Of a stretch of DNA of 64,000 bases, positions 4,897 through 49,870 are shown piece after piece; the stretch's first letter is position 1; each line of letters starts with the position of its first letter. Origin of the DNA: Oceanospirillum linum (GTDB lineage Bacteria; Pseudomonadota; Gammaproteobacteria; Pseudomonadales; Halomonadaceae); NCBI RefSeq assembly GCF_001995095.2, contig NZ_MTSD02000008.1, positions 62,001 through 126,000 on the forward strand, given 5' to 3'. The notes beneath the pieces were generated by a model. The model was not told the origin of the DNA, did no database searches, and worked only from the letters and a program-made list of their open reading frames with translations. The position numbers and the translations under genes are program-made.

Positions 4897-4921
4897 TGGT
4901 GGAGGTGGGGGGAGTCGAACC
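4897..4921. other. Probable attachment site: 3' end of ssrA
   Basis: The T-arm and acceptor end of tmRNA is the known target of many P4-type integrases, and the integrase gene lies next to it on the downstream side. The gene is complete through CCA, as expected when the crossover restores the target. The partner copy is not in the window, so it should lie left of position 1; the exact core cannot be defined from one copy. Confidence 0.55.
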
Positions 4922-5255
4922 CCCGTCCGCCAGTCCTCTGCCATCGGCTCTACATGCTTAGTTTCGTTTTTTAGTTTAACGCCTGGCACTCCAACGAACA
5001 GGATTGCCTAGCGCGAGTCTCTAAAAGTTTTAGAAGCGCGGCCTGAGACGGACGTTGCTTCGAGCCTGTTTCGCGGGCTCATACCTCGTCTAGAAGATAC
5101 AGGCATCTTCCGTCTGAGGGAGCAGCAATTAAGCTGCTAGAGCGTAGTTTTCGTCGTTTGCGACTATAAAATTGTAACGCTGGATTTACGAGATACGTTA
5201 CCCTCTCGACATGCACCTCAGGGTTTGAAACCGGCGTCGAAGCCATGTCACCCCC
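4897..5255 (-). ncRNA. ssrA: tmRNA (10Sa RNA), trans-translation
   Basis: The minus strand from 5255 begins GGGGGUGAC and ends at 4897 with CACCUCCACCA; these ends pair as the alanine acceptor stem, and the UUCGAC T-loop is present. The internal frame at 5161-5129 starts at a GCA resume codon and encodes the tag ANDENYALAA followed by UAA, close to the proteobacterial consensus. tmRNA with SmpB frees stalled ribosomes and tags the unfinished protein for proteolysis. At 359 nt it has normal length. It is immediately downstream of smpB on the same strand. Confidence 0.97.
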
Positions 5256-36171: not shown

Positions 36172-36224
36172 TTAGGCTAACTGTAAATATGCGCGGTTAG
36201 CCTGAATATATGATTCGCATATTT
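36172..36224 (+). promoter_or_regulatory. Candidate autoregulatory pseudoknot in the rpsO leader
   Basis: AGGCTAAC (36174-36181) pairs with GTTAGCCT (36196-36203), extendable by two pairs outside. AAATATGCG (36185-36193), lying in its loop, pairs with CGCATATTT (36216-36224). The two stems interlock as an H-type pseudoknot that ends 5 bases before the AGGAG ribosome site. A competing hairpin (36208-36222) uses part of the second stem. Confidence 0.6.
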
Positions 36225-36240
36225 TATCAGGAGAAGCATC

Positions 36241-36510
36241 ATGGCTTTAACTGCAGAAAAAAAAGCAGAAATCGTTAAAGAATACGCACGTGGCGAAGGT
36301 GACACTGGTTCTCCAGAAGTTCAGGTAGCCCTGCTGACGTTTAACATTAACGGTCTGCAAGAACACTTCAAAGCGAACAAACAGGATCACCACTCTCGTC
36401 GTGGTCTGATTCGCATGGTTAACCAGCGTCGTAAGCTGCTGGATTACCTGAAGAAAAAAGATCTGGGTCGCTACAGTGATCTGATCAAGAGCCTGGGTCT
36501 GCGTCGCTAA
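36241..36510 (+). CDS. rpsO: 30S ribosomal protein S15
   Basis: An 89-residue four-helix ribosomal protein, exactly the usual length, binding the 16S rRNA central domain. Motifs: [35 protein letters not shown], and the LGLRR end. The leader carries a possible pseudoknot by which S15 would repress itself, as in E. coli. pnp follows after a terminator-like hairpin. Confidence 0.98.
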
Positions 36511-42604: not shown

Positions 42605-43114
42605 TTACTCTGACTTTGTAAGTATCTGCAAGTCATCTGTAGCGATATTAGACAGAATGTCTGTAATAGAACCTTTACCGGGTAGGGTAATTCTGGGGCT
42701 GATTTCAGCCAAAGGTAACAGTACAAAGCCCCGTTCATGCATGTGTGCATGGGGTACAGTAAGGCGAGGATGGGAGATAATCTGCTCGTTAAACAGTAAC
42801 AAATCCAGATCCAGTGTACGTGGCCCCCAGTGGCGCTCACGTACGCGCCTGTGGGCTTGCTCCAATGCCTGAAGCTGGTCAAGCAACTCCAGCGGCTCAA
42901 GGTTGGTTTCCAGCTGAACGACGGCATTAACAAAGTCCGGCTGGTCCTGGGGGCCAACCGGTTTGCTGCTATATAAAGAAGAGGCTTCAACCAATCGGGT
43001 GTCCGGTAGTCGATCCAGCTCTTTCAGTGCGGTTTTAAGCTGTTGAACCGGGTCTTCAAGGTTGCTGCCAAGACCAATATAGGCTGTATTGTTTAGCACA
43101 GTAGACTCTGTCAT
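42605..43114 (-). CDS. folK: HPPK: 6-hydroxymethyl-dihydropterin pyrophosphokinase
   Basis: A 169-residue kinase that activates the pterin for FolP. Conserved stretches: YIGLGSNLEDPVQQL, GPQDQPDFVNAV, and RHWGPRTLDLDLLLF with the two metal-binding Asp. ATGA overlap with pcnB shows translational coupling, as in Pseudomonas and E. coli. Confidence 0.95.
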   Translation of the reverse strand: MTESTVLNNTAYIGLGSNLEDPVQQLKTALKELDRLPDTRLVEASSLYSSKPVGPQDQPDFVNAVVQLETNLEPLELLDQLQALEQAHRRVRERHWGPRTLDLDLLLFNEQIISHPRLTVPHAHMHERGFVLLPLAEISPRITLPGKGSITDILSNIATDDLQILTKSE

Positions 43115-44529
43115 TCCGGGTGGTTCCGGTTACCGCTTTTGGGGTGACTGTCTTTACTGTTACTGCGCCGACGCCGACGCCGCTTTTTGGGCGCGGGCTT
43201 GTCGTTAAGTTCGTTATGCTGCACCAGATTACGGCGGGAATGGGAGTCACTTTCCTGAAAGTCAGTCCACCACTGAGCCAGCTCATGTACGTTTTCCCCG
43301 GTTTCACTGCGCAATACCAGGAAATCATAAGCGGCACGGAAGCGAGGGTGCTCAGCAGTCTGGTAAGCCCGCTTACCCTGGCGGCGTTCAAGGCGCAGCT
43401 GGAACTCCCAAATTTCGCGCATTGGCTGACTGAAACGCTTGGGGATTGATGTGAAATCCACCTGAGCGGTCGTCGTCTGTTGTCCTGCTTGCTGCATTGC
43501 GGGCACCGGAGGCATACCTGAGCGAATCAGGTCACCAAAGGCCCGTTGAGCAACCGGCCAAAGTAGCGCCGCAAACAGAAATGCGGGCGTCACAGGTTTG
43601 TTCTGCTGGATACGCTTGTCAGTATTATGCAGCGCTTTAATAATAAAGCTCTCTTTGTCCGGCGTTTCCTGAAGCGCATCTTCTGTATAGGGGAAAAGCT
43701 GTTCGAACAGGTTGTATTCGCGTAGTAATCTGAAGGTTTCAACAGCCTGGCCGGATAGGAAGAGTTTGAGTACCTCTTCAAACAAGCGGGCGGCAGGTAT
43801 CTGTCGCAGAAGCGTCGCCGAAGCCTGGATAGGGGCTTCAGTTTTAGGCTCGATATTGAAATCAAGCTTAGCCGCAAAGCGAATTGCCCTCAGCATTCGC
43901 ACGGGATCTTCACGATACCGGGTTTCCGGATCGCCAATCATGCGAATCAGCCGTTGTTCAATGTCATTAATGCCGCCGGCATAGTCGTGAATTGAGAAAT
44001 CACGAATATTGTAATAGAGCGCATTGATGGTGAAGTCACGGCGTAGAGCATCCTCCTCTATGCTGCCAAAAACATTATCACGGACCAGAAGCCCCTGATC
44101 TGTCTGAGACGCATGGGATTTAGCCGTGCTTGTATCATGGGGTGCGCGAAATGTTGTCACCTCAATGATTTCACGGCCATAGCGGACATGAACAATGCGG
44201 AAGCGACGGCCAATAATACGGGCATTGTGAAAGAGGCGGTCAACCTGCTCTGGTGTCGCATTAGTCGCTACATCAAAGTCTTTTGGGTGCAGTCCCAAAA
44301 GCGCATCGCGAACACAGCCGCCTACAAGGAAGGCGTCGTAATTAGCTTTCTTCAGGCGATAGAGTACTTTCAAAGCGCTTTCTGAAATGCCGGAACGGCT
44401 GATGGGGTGTTCGTCACGGGAAACGATGCGCAATTCGTGTTTTTCGGATTGCTGTGGGCGCTCTGATTTAAGCAGCTGCCGAATTGAATCGCCGGGACGC
44501 TTTAGAAAAGAAGGAATTCCTTTTAGCAT
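43111..44529 (-). CDS. pcnB: Poly(A) polymerase I
   Basis: A 472-residue nucleotidyltransferase adding poly(A) tails to RNA for decay. The head domain has LVGGCVRDALLG and DFDVATNATPEQV with the catalytic Asp pair, then RRDFTINALYYN, then the RNA-binding neck (RYREDPVRMLRAIRFAAKL). The end is a very basic tail (KKRRRRRRSN). The start at 44529 (MLKGIPSF) is chosen because earlier in-frame codons fall into the terminator of the upstream RNA; its ribosome site is weak. It follows the CrcZ-like RNA by 43 bases. Confidence 0.93.
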   Translation of the reverse strand: MLKGIPSFLKRPGDSIRQLLKSERPQQSEKHELRIVSRDEHPISRSGISESALKVLYRLKKANYDAFLVGGCVRDALLGLHPKDFDVATNATPEQVDRLFHNARIIGRRFRIVHVRYGREIIEVTTFRAPHDTSTAKSHASQTDQGLLVRDNVFGSIEEDALRRDFTINALYYNIRDFSIHDYAGGINDIEQRLIRMIGDPETRYREDPVRMLRAIRFAAKLDFNIEPKTEAPIQASATLLRQIPAARLFEEVLKLFLSGQAVETFRLLREYNLFEQLFPYTEDALQETPDKESFIIKALHNTDKRIQQNKPVTPAFLFAALLWPVAQRAFGDLIRSGMPPVPAMQQAGQQTTTAQVDFTSIPKRFSQPMREIWEFQLRLERRQGKRAYQTAEHPRFRAAYDFLVLRSETGENVHELAQWWTDFQESDSHSRRNLVQHNELNDKPAPKKRRRRRRSNSKDSHPKSGNRNHPE

Positions 44530-44572
44530 CGCTGGGTCTTGAATCTCTGAATAGGAGAGGGGAGTGTACCTT

Positions 44573-44603
44573 AAAAATAAAAGCGGGGCCAAGTTGGCCC
44601 CGC
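44573..44603 (-). terminator. Terminator of the CrcZ-like RNA
   Basis: GCGGGGCCAA and TTGGCCCCGC (44583-44603) form a perfect 10-bp stem with a single-base centre (effective loop larger), followed on the minus strand by TTTTATTTTT. Confidence 0.88.
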
Positions 44604-45078
44604 CGGAACTGTCCGCATCCTTACGAACGGTATGTCAGACTTCGGTAAATCGCCCTGAATACGCAATGACAGTCTATCGGTGACAAACCTTGGTGGCTTA
44701 TGCCTTATTATTTTTGTTTTCCAATGCGAAGTATCACTACTTCTGGTTTGGACCGCCTCGTATTCAAAACAATTATTCCAAGTATTTTTTCTCAGACCGG
44801 TTTTTATTTTTATGATCCGGGCTGGCATCTTAAAGCATTGCTTTTTTATTGTTGTTGCAAGCCTGAGATGCATGAGTTTGCTGTGGTTAACCTCGACCTG
44901 ATTTATTGTTGTTGTTTCAGGTTTGGCATTTTGTTCGGATATTTATTTTTGTTGTTTCCGATTCTGCCTGATTTTTTCCGCTCTGATTTTTGTTTTTGTT
45001 ATTTGAGCGTTACAAAATCTGCCAGTTATTATTTTTATTGAGTTGGCTGTTAGTTAACCGTGTTCTTGTTGTTCTTAC
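44573..45078 (-). ncRNA. crcZ: CrcZ-like Hfq/Crc-titrating small RNA
   Basis: About 506 nt from a predicted start near 45078 to an intrinsic terminator at 44573. It is not coding: the small frames across it have no ribosome sites or sensible composition. It carries at least eight A-rich (AAN)4-5 runs, at 45062-45076, 45025-45039, 44987-45004, 44941-44957, 44901-44918, 44841-44857, 44801-44812 and 44704-44720. Such AAN repeats bind the distal face of Hfq, which with Crc blocks catabolic mRNAs; CrcZ soaks them up. The position (cbrB-here-pcnB), the sigma-54 promoter and the upstream palindrome are those of crcZ in Pseudomonas, where the RNA is about 400 nt. Confidence 0.85.
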
Positions 45079-45087
45079 CCGTATAGA

Positions 45088-45104
45088 CTGCACTTGCTGT
45101 GCCA
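45088..45104 (-). promoter_or_regulatory. Sigma-54 (-24/-12) promoter of the CrcZ-like RNA
   Basis: On the minus strand TGGCAC, five bases, then GTGCA: GG and GC are exactly 10 bases apart, the sigma-54 hallmark, with one mismatch from TGGCAC-N5-TTGCA. Predicted transcription start near 45078, directly before the first AAN run. Confidence 0.82.
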
Positions 45105-45215
45105 TGTTTTGAAAAAACCTTTTAAAACAGGTAGTTAACAGTTTCGATGTAAAGTTTGTCTGTGGCCGAACAAAAGATTGTTACCTGTGAAACCATTATT
45201 TTCAGGGTTGCCTGT

Positions 45216-45230
45216 GTGTTACGGTAACAC
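45216..45230. promoter_or_regulatory. Palindromic enhancer site, probably for CbrB
   Basis: GTGTTAC-G-GTAACAC is a perfect 15-bp inverted repeat about 125 bases upstream of the sigma-54 promoter, the usual distance for an NtrC-family activator. A half site TGTTAC lies at 45179-45184. CbrB is the neighbouring activator and known regulator of crcZ in Pseudomonas; binding here is inferred. Confidence 0.65.
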
Positions 45231-45282: not shown

Positions 45283-45310
45283 TAAAAAAGAGCGGATGTT
45301 ATCCGCTCTT
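45283..45310 (-). terminator. Terminator of cbrB with the stop codon in its loop
   Basis: AAGAGCGGAT and ATCCGCTCTT form a 10-bp stem; the cbrB TAA stop lies across the stem top and loop. Six T follow on the minus strand. It separates cbrAB transcription from the small RNA. Confidence 0.88.
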
Positions 45311-46735
45311 CTTAGATGCTGCTTTTTTTCTCGGGATCCCAAGGCGTTGACGCCTTTCCCAGAGGCATTTTCTACTGATGCCTAGTCGCTGGGCGAGCTC
45401 TGTTTCGCTCATCTGATCCTGATGCTCCAGTACAAAGTGCTGGAAGTAGTCTTCGAGTGAGAGATCCTCCGGAGCCTTAGTGCCGTCATTACGTGCGGCA
45501 GAACGCTGGGATTGTGGGATCATGCCAACAGAAGGGAGCGCGGATTGAACCTGGGGTGGCATGCGGGTTGAATGGGTTACTTCTGGAACAACGCCCATAT
45601 CATCGCTATGAATGAGATTGCCCTCTGCGAGAATGACACCCCGTTCGATGGCATTTTCCAGCTCCCGTACGTTACCAGGCCAGTCATGTTGCATGATGGC
45701 ATCGGAGGCGTGCTTACTGAAGCGCAGGTTTGGGCGATCCATGCGCTTACAGGCTTCTCCCAGCAGAAACTCTGCAATCTCCAGAATGTCTTCTCCCCGG
45801 TCACGGAGTGCTGGCAGGGCGATCTCCATGACATTAAGACGATAGTAAAGATCGAGACGAAACTCACCTTCGCTGGAAAGTTTTTTCAGGTTCCGGTGTG
45901 TGGCGGCGACTAAGCGAACATTTACTTTTTTTGATTGCACAGAGCCGATGCGCCTGATCTCACCTTCCTGGAGTACCCGTAGCAGACGTGCCTGTGCCTC
46001 CAGGGGGAGTTCTCCAATCTCATCAAGAAACAGTGTTCCGCCATCAGCGGCTTCGACTAAACCGCTGCGGTTAGTGTTTGCACCGGTAAAAGCACCTTTC
46101 TCATAGCCAAAAAGTTCGGACTCAATAAGTGTTTCTGGAATTGCCGCGCAGTTCACGGAGATCATCGGCTCTCCTTTCCGGCGGCTGTAATTATGAATTG
46201 CTTTGGCGACCAGCTCTTTACCGGTACCTGATTCACCCTGAACCAGAACGGTCGCCTCTGTGGGAGCTACTTTTCTGATACGTTGGTAAACCATCTGCAT
46301 CGGAGCGCAGTGGCCGATCATACCCATGGTGCCAGCATCTGTTGATGCGGCCTCTGCTTCTTCAATAACACTGGCTGCGGGTCGCTCTGGCTGATCCAGA
46401 ATACGATTAACCGTCTCCAGCATCTCATCGTGATCAAATGGTTTGGCGATATAATCCACAGCCCCTTGCTTCATAGCATCAACGGCGGAGCGCATGCTGG
46501 CGTAGCTGGTCATAATAAGAACCGGCGTGTCTTCTGCCAGCTTAATCAGATCCGTACCTGGTGCTTTGGGCAGGCGCAGATCAGAAATGACCAAATTATA
46601 GCGGTTGCTTTTCAGGTGGCTCAGAGCATCGTCTACCGATGCCGCCTCACTGACTTCAAAGCGGTGTCGCTCCAGCAGCCTTTTAAGAGCTGAGCGAATA
46701 ATATCTTCATCTTCTACTATCAGAATCTTGCTCAT
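45299..46735 (-). CDS. cbrB: NtrC-family response regulator CbrB
   Basis: A 478-residue sigma-54 activator. The receiver domain has the phosphorylated D52 (VISDLRLPKAPGTD). The AAA+ domain has Walker A GESGTGKE (167-174) and the sigma-54 contact loop GAFTGA (214-219). The C-terminal Fis-type helix-turn-helix is SETELAQRLGISRKCLWERR. In Pseudomonas CbrB drives crcZ/crcY and carbon/nitrogen balance genes. The start at 46735 overlaps the cbrA stop by one base (TAATG) with a GGAAG site, so kinase and regulator are coupled. Confidence 0.93.
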   Translation of the reverse strand: MSKILIVEDEDIIRSALKRLLERHRFEVSEAASVDDALSHLKSNRYNLVISDLRLPKAPGTDLIKLAEDTPVLIMTSYASMRSAVDAMKQGAVDYIAKPFDHDEMLETVNRILDQPERPAASVIEEAEAASTDAGTMGMIGHCAPMQMVYQRIRKVAPTEATVLVQGESGTGKELVAKAIHNYSRRKGEPMISVNCAAIPETLIESELFGYEKGAFTGANTNRSGLVEAADGGTLFLDEIGELPLEAQARLLRVLQEGEIRRIGSVQSKKVNVRLVAATHRNLKKLSSEGEFRLDLYYRLNVMEIALPALRDRGEDILEIAEFLLGEACKRMDRPNLRFSKHASDAIMQHDWPGNVRELENAIERGVILAEGNLIHSDDMGVVPEVTHSTRMPPQVQSALPSVGMIPQSQRSAARNDGTKAPEDLSLEDYFQHFVLEHQDQMSETELAQRLGISRKCLWERRQRLGIPRKKAASKKSG

Positions 46736-49704
46736 TAGTACTTCCACGCGGATTCGCTTTTGGCTTCAGCATGGTAGAGAGGCAGGGTGATGGTGACCTC
46801 TGTTCCACGACCTTGCATCCGATCTGCGGGGCTGCTGATCTGAATATGACCATAGTGTTCTTCTATGATGCTGTAGACCAGCGCTAAGCCGAGACCGGTT
46901 CCTTCTCCGGGATCTTTGGTAGTGAAGAAGGGCTCAAATATATGCTCTAACTGTTCTTCAGGAATACCGCAGCCACGATCCGTAACGCTTACCCTGACTG
47001 TATTGTCCTGAATGGTAGCAGTTATAGTAACACTATCACCTGCGTCTGAGGCATCTCTTGCGTTACCCAATAGGTTAACAAATACCTGAATCAGCTTCTG
47101 GACATCACCGATAACGTAAAGATCATTCGGGCATAAATTGCTGAATTCAATATCTTTCCCCTTTGAACTTAAGGAGATAAGGTTAATAGCTTCATCAACG
47201 GCATGCCCGATAACAAGAGGCTCCTGTGCTGCCTGGTTGGCGTGTTGACCCGCATGGGCGAAGCTGACCAGTGAGTGGACAATACGTGTTACCCGCTTCG
47301 TCAGCTGTAGAATCTGTTCGGCGGTTTCCGCAATAACTTCTGGATTGTCTGTCTCATATTTCAGGTTTTGAACAAGGGAGGATATTCCGGTAATGGGATT
47401 GCCGATCTCATGGGCAACGCCTGCTGCAAGCCGTCCTATACTGGCCAGGCGCTCGCTGTGTACGAGCTCCTCTTCCAGTTCCTGCGTTTCGGTATGATCT
47501 TCCAGCAAAATCACCGAACCACCCATATGTGACAGAGGCTCTTCAATATGGGCTTTGTGTAGGGAGAACCAGCGTGGTTTGCTGTTATTCTGTTGCAGTT
47601 TCTGGAACAGATGAGGTGTCTGGCTGCTGACAAACTCACCTAGCAGCCCCTTCCAGGGCTCCGGTAAACTATCAAACCGGGAACCCACAACATCCTTCAT
47701 AGGAATGCCTGTCAGTTCGGCCATGGCGTTGTTCCACATCAGAATCTCAAAATCGTTACCCAATGAGCAGACCCCTATCGGCAGATACTGCAGCGTTTGG
47801 CGATGATAGCGCCTGAGTGAATCCAGCTCCTTGGCAAGACCTGTCAGTTGGTAGCGGTAGTTCTCCAGTCGGGTTTCAACAAAGTGAATATCCTCTGAAT
47901 TATGGCTGTTGGCATTGGCCTGGTAAGGCAGGTGTTGATCAACAATTTCCTGGGCGATAGCAGGGCCCATCAGGCCGGACAAGTTGGCCTGGATTCGGTC
48001 TCTAAGACGGCGCAGAGCGTATGGACGCCCGTCCGTTGGCGTCAGTTCCAGATCTCTCAGTGCATTTCTGACTTCCCGCTCTGCCGTCATTTTCCCCAAT
48101 GGTATCGCCAAAAAGCTAATAAAGTCCTCACAGGTCCTGGCTGCCAGTTGCAGGCGATGAGGTCGGGAAAGAGCATCCACTGAGCAAGAGCTTGCTCCGG
48201 CTTTCTCTTCATCACTTGGTTGCAGGAACAAAGAAGTAAAAATAAAAACCACAATATTGATGATGATGGATGCGAGAGCGACGTCATACCAGCCATCCCC
48301 TCCGGAGTGAAAAACCAGATTAGTCGCGGGCAGAGTGACTTGCTCTAGGTTATAAAGCAGAGGCACAACCTGGCCGAAAATCCAGATGCCAATACCTGCA
48401 CAAAGACCCGCAACCAGGCCAATGCGGTTGGCGGTTGGCCAATACAATACTGCCAGTATTCCGGGCAGAAACTGCAAAATACCGATGAAGGATGTCAGCC
48501 CCAGACTTGCTAGGTCATGTTTTACCCCTAATGTTCGGTAGAACAGATAAGCGGCCAGAATAATCAGACCTATCAGTAGTCGGCGAAACCAGAGCAACCA
48601 GTTGTAGATATCAAATTTGGCCCCGGGCTGATAAACCGGCAGAACCAGGTGGTTTAGGGTCATGGCGGCTAAAGCCAGAGTGACCAGAATAATGGTGCCG
48701 CTTGCGGCGGAAAGTCCTGCGATAAAAGCCAAGATGCCAATCCAGTTTTCTGCACCACCGGCGCCGACACCCAATACGGTATATTCTGCTTTCAGGGGGG
48801 TGCCTTCAGCCATGCCGGCCCAAAGAATAAGAGGTACCGGAAGGCTCAAAAGTAGCAGATAGAGAGGAACAGCCCAGCTGGAACGAAACAGTACATCCGT
48901 AGATTGATTTTCGGTAAAAATAATATGGAACATATGTGGCATAGCCACGGCTGCGGCAAAGAATAATAGAAGCATGGTACGCCACTGACCGGCCTCAAGC
49001 GGTTTTTGTAATGCCTGTAATTGATCCGAGTGGGCTGTTAGCCAGATATCTAAGCCCTGAAAACCACCAAAGACCTCAAACAGGATATAGGCGCCGATGG
49101 CCAGCATGAGTACCAGTTTGATAATGGACTCAAAGGCAATAGCGACCACGAGACTTTCGTGCTTTTCCCGTAGAGAGGTATGACGGGCACCGAACAAAAT
49201 AGCAAATGAAGTCATTACCATGCAGAAACCAAGTGCCAGAGTGTGGGGTGAGGCTTCATTGGTGAGGATATAGATGGAGTCTGCGACAGCCTGAATCTGA
49301 AGTGCCAGTAGAGGAAGTGCCCCCATTAGCATAAGTACTGTTACCAGACTGCCAATCCACCGGCTACGGAAGCGAAAAGCGAAAAGATCGGCCAGGGATG
49401 AGAGCTGATAGGTTCTTGTGATTCGTAGTATCGGCACTAAAAGGACCGGAGCAAGCACAAAAGCACCTGCAACGCCGAGATAGTAAGAGAGAAACCCGTA
49501 GCCGTACTGATTCGCCAACCCAACAGAGCCATAGACAGCCCATGCGCTGGCATAGACTCCCAGAGACAGTACATAAACCAAGGGGTGACGCGTTATTTTT
49601 CGGGGTAACCAGCGCCGCTCGGTTGCATAGGCCGCTGCAAATAATAGCAAGAGGTAGCCGACGCCGATGGCGGATACCTGCCCTAGGCTAAAACTAAAGC
49701 TCAT
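46735..49704 (-). CDS. cbrA: Sensor histidine kinase CbrA with sodium/solute symporter-like domain
   Basis: A 989-residue membrane kinase. The N-terminal half (about 1-500) is a 13-helix SLC5/SSS-type transporter domain. A linker follows (about 510-640, STAC-like), then a PAS domain ([19 protein letters not shown]), the H box [13 protein letters not shown], and an ATPase domain with N ([10 protein letters not shown]), G1 (DRGCGIP), F (IFEPFFTTK) and G2 (GTGLGLALV) boxes. This is the layout of Pseudomonas CbrA (983 aa). The start at 49704 (MSFSFSLGQ) overlaps the small upstream gene by 11 bases. It phosphorylates CbrB; the signal is not settled. Confidence 0.92.
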
Positions 49705-49870
49705 CCAATTTTCTCTTCTGTTCAAGCCAGATAGAAATGCCGATCAGGGCACCCCAAACCAGATAAGGGCGGTACCAGCTGCCGTTACTGTCGCCCCACC
49801 AGTCCATCAGAACCGGGGAAAAGAGGTAACCGGCAAAGACCAGAAAGAGGATTAAACGGTACATATACAT
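49694..49870 (-). CDS. cbrX: Small membrane protein upstream of CbrA (CbrX-like, 58 aa)
   Basis: A 58-residue frame with two predicted membrane helices (MYRLILFLVFAGYLFSPVLM, then PYLVWGALIGISIWLE) and a charged end. The conserved-looking central part is DWWGDSNGSWYRPY. It ends inside cbrA (TAG at 49696-49694, cbrA ATG at 49704), so translation of cbrA is probably coupled to it. A small gene called cbrX precedes cbrA in Pseudomonas putida in the same arrangement; the symbol rests on position and size, as I could not align sequences. An ATG at 49864 is an alternative start. Confidence 0.75.
   Translation of the reverse strand: MYMYRLILFLVFAGYLFSPVLMDWWGDSNGSWYRPYLVWGALIGISIWLEQKRKLDEL

Follow-up and report, generated by a model that had tools for sequence, protein, structure and literature searches.

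A putative CrcZ-type Hfq/Crc sponge RNA between cbrB and pcnB in Oceanospirillum linum and other Halomonadaceae

We analysed a 64,000-nt stretch of Oceanospirillum linum DNA (contig NZ_MTSD02000008.1, positions 62,001 to 126,000; G+C content, 50.4%), called the window below, in which the genes cbrB and pcnB flank a noncoding segment of about 506 nt. All three, together with cbrA upstream of cbrB, lie on the minus strand, and a gene reading as gluQ lies beyond cbrA. The original prediction, made from the letters alone, took the segment for an RNA like Pseudomonas CrcZ, a sponge for Hfq and Crc. The location between cbrB and pcnB that it gave is borne out, as are a sigma-54 promoter directly before the first of a series of AAN triplet runs and an intrinsic terminator at the end of the segment (Table 1). 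We put at roughly 0.87 the probability that the locus is the crcZ gene of a Halomonadaceae genus, encoding a CbrAB- and sigma-54-driven Hfq/Crc sponge RNA, and at the level of sequence the original interpretation is well supported.

The long N-terminal region of the cbrA product reads as membrane-spanning and is followed by PAS-like, HisKA and HATPase regions. A terminator read by eye stands between cbrB and the RNA segment. The position of the sigma-54 promoter places the +1 near 45078, so that the first AAN run starts 2 bases past the inferred RNA start.

Table 1. Features of the cbrA-cbrB-pcnB region, in window coordinates
Feature	Position	Strand	Basis or remark
cbrA, sensor kinase	46735..49725	-	HATPase_c and HisKA above cut-off, PAS_4 below cut-off; name from position and pairing with cbrB
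cbrB, sigma-54-dependent response regulator	45299..46732	-	Position, domains, orthologues; C-terminal block conserved across the order
cbrB terminator (9-bp stem, 3-nt loop, T run)	45289..45309	-	By eye; absent from the terminator scan list
Putative CbrB half-sites GTTAC (G at 45228, -124) and GTAAC (G at 45222, -118)	45218..45228	-	Distances from the promoter's first T
Putative CbrB half-site GTAAC (-80)	45180..45184	-	Distance from the promoter's first T
Sigma-54 promoter, TGGCAC-N5-GTGCA (GG-N10-GC)	45089..45104	-	Sequence reading
CrcZ-type RNA, about 506 nt	44573..45078	-	Both transcript ends inferred
A-run 1, 5 AAN	45062..45076	-	
A-run 2, 5 AAN	45025..45039	-	
A-run 3, 6 AAN	44986..45003	-	Covarying hairpin loop
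A-run 4, 5 AAN	44942..44956	-	
A-run 5, 5 AAN	44902..44916	-	Covarying hairpin loop
A-run 6, 5 AAN	44842..44856	-	Covarying hairpin loop
A-run 7, 4 AAN	44800..44811	-	Covarying hairpin loop
A-run 8, 5 AAN	44704..44718	-	Within the 3' domain; no enclosing local hairpin in the minimum free energy (MFE) fold
Conserved 3' domain, closed by a 16-bp helix	44641..44784	-	
Intrinsic terminator of the RNA (10-bp GC-rich hairpin, then T tract)	44582..44604, through 44573	-	Terminator scan and reading
pcnB, poly(A) polymerase	43111..44532	-	NCBIfam TIGR01942, 550.6 bits, cut-off 305.65

The segment had been described as carrying at least eight runs of four to five AAN triplets; the eight runs were confirmed, and one of them has six triplets (5, 5, 6, 5, 5, 5, 4 and 5, reading from 45076 to 44704 on the minus strand). 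In 5,000 dinucleotide shuffles of the segment the mean number of runs of at least four triplets was 0.58 and the maximum 5, so none reached 8, and the opposite strand of the segment has no such run. Over both strands of the window there are 15 runs of at least four triplets, 8 of them within the segment, and all 7 runs of at least five lie inside it. Loss of the runs from close relatives would have told against a sponge RNA. The RNA, AAN runs included, is instead kept in all six genomes of the window's genus, where 72 of 80 AA letters are invariant, compared with 14 of 40 N letters and 197 of 385 positions of the RNA outside the runs. On these counts the AA letters of the runs appear to be held by selection while the N letters drift.

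We then looked across 128 cbrB loci, made up of 48 found by a CbrB search of 58 genomes (the window's own included) and 80 named loci from a GTDB scan with the CbrB C-terminal block, the latter being the best 80 of at least 466 confirmed stretches. The 128 are not independent, since some come from the same or sister species. A sigma-54 site followed 15 to 60 nt on by an AAN run was present in 118 of them. The same arrangement was found on none of the 128 opposite strands of these gaps and nowhere in the remaining 1.18 Mb of loci sequence, both strands searched. It occurs in 6 of 6 loci of the window's genus, 20 of 22 other unnamed and 19 of 19 named Halomonadaceae loci, 41 of 41 Pseudomonadaceae loci, and 18 of 20 named and 14 of 20 unnamed loci of other groups. 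Culturable halomonads with the locus include Chromohalobacter canadensis (L078) and Vreelandella neptunia (L081). The distance from promoter to first run is 27 to 30 nt in the window's genus, 27 to 29 nt in other Halomonadaceae, 29 to 30 nt in Pseudomonadaceae and 27 to 48 nt in the rest. The arrangement is thus not special to this organism, which, like the hairpin loops and the 3' domain described below, goes beyond the original prediction.

Ten loci lacked the arrangement (L012, L019, L026, L027, L028, L035, L042, L046, L059 and L077). Two of them, L026 and L059, have little sequence past cbrB, and the L026 genome carries the RNA on another contig beside pcnB (L169). The genomes of L012 and L035 have the RNA (L170) or the promoter-run unit (L176) sited elsewhere. 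At L019 the runs are present and the promoter reads GGGCAC; at L077 the runs lie at a greater distance from a promoter-like site; L028 has a promoter-like site without a run; and L027, L042 and L046 are simply without the arrangement. The form of the RNA also varies. That of Zhongshania (L064) is about 110 nt long and consists of promoter, three clustered runs and terminator only, and that of an uncultured gammaproteobacterium (L063) has 13 runs.

From its position and promoter, we regard the RNA as the orthologue of Pseudomonas crcZ, and it most likely works like CrcZ. The window RNA has the traits of the CrcZ class, namely, the cbrB-pcnB location, a sigma-54 promoter, CbrB subsites, several AAN (CA-motif) runs, and Crc and Hfq in the genome. 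An extra copy away from cbrB-pcnB would have marked a CrcY or CrcX; this RNA sits at cbrB-pcnB. A promoter-plus-run model, R2, which was run on 38 of the 58 genomes, gave one match at E <= 0.1 in the window's genome, at cbrB-pcnB, and found no second copy there, with the limit that it misses some true copies: it matched nothing in 9 of the 38 genomes, including G011, G019, G047 and G052, in each of which promoter and runs had been observed by another route.

Two side observations concern copies in other genomes. The unit at L176 (genome G042) is a short, CrcY-like one, a sigma-54 site and AAN run with GTTAC/GTAAC sites, away from cbrB and upstream of what reads as a periplasmic binding protein gene. 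Tandem sigma-54 promoters, each followed by AAN runs, stand downstream of cbrB at L177 (G041), L036 (G047) and L128 (an Oceanicoccus bin), and we read these as local duplications of the RNA.

Upstream of crcZ in Pseudomonas putida, CbrB binds one subsite in forward orientation, TGTTAC, and two in reverse, GTAACA (PMC6296734). We counted GTTAC/GTAAC pentamers in up to 200 nt upstream of the promoter. This count and the hairpin tests below used 107 of the 128 loci in four groups; the 21 omitted were same-species duplicates (for example, L016/L052, L013/L055 and L033/L078), loci that lack promoter or runs, four loci from Pseudomonadaceae or the like and a small number of others. For the half-site count 104 of the 107 offered a promoter with a run after it, and for the stem-score test 105 offered a promoter match. 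The pentamers numbered 2.25 to 3.5 in the four cbrB-bearing groups, compared with 0.31 to 0.35 in shuffled sequence. As to position, of the 45 cbrB-bearing Halomonadaceae loci with promoter and run, 42 have GTTAC near -124 and all 45 have GTAAC near -80, and the half-site peaks of 41 Pseudomonadaceae loci fall at -121 to -124, -102 to -104 and -80 to -82. The window has three predicted CbrB subsites, those at -124 and -80 at the Pseudomonas distances and the middle one displaced to -118.

No CbrB orthologue was found in 9 of 37 Halomonadaceae genomes. In eight of these the best CbrB matches had 42 to 45% identity, covered at most residues 2 to 385 and were read as NtrC-like; in the ninth, G021, the best match had an E value of 1.9e-83. 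The RNA, with its sigma-54 site and runs, is still found before pcnB in at least 8 of the 9 (loci L152 to L158 and L179), the remaining genome being G022. The stretch around the RNA in these eight genomes gave no match to cbrA or cbrB, cbrA having been searched for in that stretch only, and in the loci with frames listed (L152, L155 and L179) a gene reading as gluQ lies upstream of the RNA. None of the eight loci has the half-site pair. One of them carries GTAAC at -78; in four, one to three of these pentamers fall within 260 nt, for the most part at other places; in seven cbrB-less loci the density was 0.71, compared with 0.42 in shuffled sequence. On a tree of about 200 PcnB columns the eight loci form one clade (support, 97/94; bootstrap not fully settled), in which cbrB was probably lost once. 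Genome G028, which keeps cbrB elsewhere, has the RNA relocated beside a gene reading as hemF (L170, 1501-2120), with both half-sites.

The genome also encodes the partners that a CrcZ-type RNA would need. Whether a crc gene exists had been left as a check, and it does: its 253-aa product scores 276.7 bits to Pseudomonas aeruginosa Crc (PDB 4jg3). It scores 272.4 bits to 2myi, which is labelled exodeoxyribonuclease III and which we take to be a Pseudomonas Crc, and 200.5 bits to 2jc5, of the next family. By eye, crc adjoins genes reading as rph and pyrE, and in the alignment the residues that are catalytic in the exonuclease family seem to have been altered, as is the case in Crc. Among the RNA-contact and dimer residues named for Crc (PMC6422490), the contacts Arg140, Arg141 and Arg196 and the dimer residues Arg229 and Arg230 read as retained in the alignment. 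Hfq scores 136.9 bits to PDB 1u1s, and RpoN is encoded as well.

We looked for candidate targets in 400 kb of the genome, about a tenth of it, which holds 48 runs of at least four AAN triplets, 33 of them intergenic. Nine genes, their starts called by a simple script, have a run no more than about 75 nt from the start. The best families of five are pyruvate dehydrogenase E1 alpha, HpaH (first 110 aa only), aldehyde dehydrogenase, D-amino-acid dehydrogenase and an amino-acid-binding protein; the other four had no family match at 1e-10. These candidates fit control by Hfq/Crc, thin as the set is. We also noted that runs of at least four triplets in this piece (C109:1-400000; L189 to L208) are skewed between the strands, 34 plus and 14 minus.

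Several points weigh against reading the locus as crcZ. The first is the Rfam CrcZ model, RF01675, which gave the window RNA 12.6 bits against a gathering cut-off of 95, a miss that had been foreseen for a model trained on Pseudomonas. The model had no match anywhere in the window's genome; because 14 control genomes also had none, the whole-genome search alone proves little. On 20 loci it found 3 of 3 from Pseudomonas, at 328 to 342 bits, and 0 of 17 others (two of the 17 being from the same species). The RNA is therefore not a member of RF01675 as modelled. Second, the window and most of the Halomonadaceae listed lack the Pseudomonas half-site near -103 at that position, and the middle site is absent from many relatives. 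Third, because the cbrB-less loci form a single clade, their loss of the half-sites counts as one event and not eight. Fourth, no Pfam symporter domain was reported in CbrA at E <= 0.001, so that its name rests on position and on pairing with CbrB. Fifth, some contact or dimer residues of Crc differ in the alignment (Lys155 to Thr, Phe231 to Asn and Arg233 to Val). Sixth, the evidence on targets is thin, in that for 5 of 9 genes the best family bears a catabolic or transport name, and only one of the five (D-amino-acid dehydrogenase) passes its curated cut-off. Finally, two genomes have promoter and runs without a clear Crc: G052 (L044), whose best match has 120.8 bits and 29% identity, and G038 (L043; 75% complete), which has no match.

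Those two genomes would fit an RNA that titrates Hfq alone, with Crc uninvolved. Across the 50 of 58 genomes searched for Crc, however, 46 have a clear orthologue (more than 200 bits), the window's among them, and the other two without one are G053, where the cbrB-pcnB gap is free of runs, and G054, with a best CbrB match that is only NtrC-like. We consider a general Hfq sponge unlikely, if the least unlikely of the alternatives.

A second alternative starts from the 3' domain of the RNA, whose core 16-mer occurs without mismatch in 45 of 47 Halomonadaceae cbrB loci and in 0 of 81 others. We aligned 37 sequences from the 45 loci with the exact core motif (alignment A3). In the 16-bp closing helix 98.1% of cells pair, and 12 of the 16 pairs are constant, those of the G-U type among them. 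Just 3 of 24 pairs show two-sided changes; the support for the helix therefore comes mainly from a degree of pairing unmatched by any slid version, and the letters are themselves under constraint. The domain model R1, which was run on 41 of the 58 genomes, gave a single copy in each of 34 Halomonadaceae genomes out of 37 and no copy in 4 genomes from other families. In two of the three genomes missed, G021 and G028, the RNA is still present by promoter and runs. No Rfam family came near its cut-off for this domain in the one locus searched (best, 14.4 bits; cut-off, 40), and we took the weak sub-cut-off Rfam matches in the window RNA as chance. A similar-looking helix in Pseudomonas CrcZ, noticed by eye, was considered as a homologue and set aside: in an R1 search of 50 loci on both strands the sole good match was a Halomonadaceae locus (L025), and the best other match, to a Pseudomonas locus, had an E value of 7.4 and covered the inner part of the model only.

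A helix nearly invariant in sequence, beyond what pairing alone asks for, across 37 loci and in so many genomes of the family could mean that the main function lies in the 3' domain, for example, in binding another protein or pairing with an mRNA, and that the A-runs are secondary. Outside the Halomonadaceae, however, promoter and runs persist without the domain, as they do in the short Zhongshania form. This makes such a division of roles improbable in our view, a little more so than an Hfq sponge without Crc.

The A-runs are also set in a structure of their own. A hairpin test on MFE folds gave 0.79 for the window's genus and 0.85 for other Halomonadaceae, against high backgrounds of 0.45 and 0.66 with shuffled flanks. 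We then scored contiguous stems against re-dealt 3' flanks and counted covariation. The mean stem score of the run flanks was 10.85 in the window's genus (7.95 re-dealt; 0 of 1,000 as high), 11.68 in other Halomonadaceae (8.29; 0 of 1,000), 7.17 in Pseudomonadaceae (6.70; 1 of 1,000) and 6.69 in other families (5.75; 0 of 1,000). Strong stems enclosed 21 of 48 runs in the window's genus (5.2 expected) and 79 of 183 in other Halomonadaceae (25.0 expected), compared with 17 of 212 in Pseudomonadaceae (13.6 expected) and 15 of 128 in other families (4.8 expected). Halomonadaceae therefore show a large hairpin effect and Pseudomonas a slight one. In the alignment of the genus, the five helices around runs 3, 5, 6 and 7, the only ones counted and taken from a structure derived from that same alignment, show changes on both sides at 13 of 30 pairs (5.9 in shuffles) and in 24 cells (7.7 in shuffles; 0 of 500 as high). 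Further pair types showed no excess (21, compared with 21.5 in shuffles). We read these as loops that would each present one Hfq motif.

The A-rich segment is crossed by two open frames, one of 100 aa in sense and one of 113 aa in antisense, and the sense frame is intact in the window and its nearest relative, G004; we rejected a protein-coding gene here because that frame is broken in the other four species of the genus. That the runs merely arise from an A-rich spacer, or belong to a coding gene, and do not serve as binding sites is, given in addition the shuffles, the drift of N beside a constant AA and the covarying helices, very improbable. Ordinary known RNAs elsewhere in the window are an S15 leader (36173-36297, plus strand) and tmRNA (4897-5255, minus strand).

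Taken as crcZ, the locus would work as follows. When good carbon sources are exhausted, CbrA and CbrB would activate the sigma-54 promoter, and an RNA of about 500 nt would be made. Its eight AAN runs, several of them in hairpin loops, would bind Hfq at its distal face, jointly with Crc, and Hfq/Crc would be drawn off the A-rich translation starts of catabolic and transport mRNAs, with the conserved 3' domain as an added module. We infer from the sequence comparisons that the RNA is transcribed, is induced by carbon limitation, binds Hfq/Crc, relieves its targets and so acts on catabolite repression.

A more far-reaching version is one we hold tentatively and would, if pressed, bet against. 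It makes the Halomonadaceae CrcZ an RNA of two modules, a rack of hairpin loops, each displaying a single motif for the distal face of Hfq, and a 3' domain of almost constant sequence with a partner of its own, protein or mRNA, the RNA being valuable enough for the CbrB-less clade to have kept it under another sigma-54 activator. If this were true, the regulatory module would be older than the divergence of Pseudomonas, Halomonas and their relatives.

A clade without cbrB that retains the RNA raises the question of which activator replaced CbrB. The covarying loops suggest a rule by which Hfq sponges are designed, and the 3' helix, almost invariant, marks an RNA domain without an Rfam family match in the one locus checked. 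Halomonads are used in salt-tolerant biotechnology, where the hierarchy of carbon sources matters.

The survey indicates that cbrB and a CrcZ-type RNA occur in Halomonadaceae and several other families. A 2022 review (PMC8871633) calls CbrAB unique to the Pseudomonadaceae and gives the cbrA-cbrB-crcZ order as described only in Pseudomonas and Azotobacter, and PMC6296734 terms the system exclusive of the Pseudomonads. The spread reported here contradicts the printed statement of the review, and this food-choice switch appears to be much more widespread than those two genera, in a differently built form. The failure of the Rfam model to reach the 17 loci tested suggests why the RNA was overlooked. 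Literature searches that combined CrcZ or CbrB with Halomonas, Oceanospirillales, Marinobacter or settings outside Pseudomonas, or paired Hfq/Crc with Halomonadaceae, turned up no account of this RNA, subscription journals being little covered. In the available parts of the papers retrieved, cbrAB transcripts are recorded in sea water without mention of CrcZ (PMC5073097), CrcZ and Halomonas occur in unrelated contexts (PMC9049629 and PMC13086519), and CrcZ stands in the reference list alone (PMC8312277); PMC10714802 and PMC13022988 contained nothing on the subject.

The window RNA shares with Pseudomonas CrcZ (RF01675) the cbrB-pcnB site, the sigma-54 promoter, several AAN runs, the terminator, predicted CbrB half-sites at about -124 and -80, and a first A-run at 27 to 30 nt from the first T of the promoter. 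It differs in being unmatched by the Rfam model and, as predicted, in being longer and richer in motifs, with eight runs in about 506 nt compared with six A-rich stretches in the 407 nt of P. aeruginosa CrcZ (PMC4063720). Many runs of the window type stand in strong hairpin loops, an effect that is slight in Pseudomonas, and the 3' domain model has no good match in the Pseudomonas loci searched. Unlike the single copy that R2, which misses some true copies, places at cbrB-pcnB here, Pseudomonas CrcY and CrcX sit elsewhere in the genome. CrcX, like the window RNA as we read it, is an A-rich Hfq/Crc sponge under CbrB and sigma-54, and the same likeness holds for CrcY (PMC6296734). The CrcZ/CrcY system of Azotobacter vinelandii, compared by gene order alone, belongs to the other genus described with the cbrA-cbrB-crcZ order (PMC8871633); Azotobacter lies within the Pseudomonadaceae, whereas the present locus lies outside that family.
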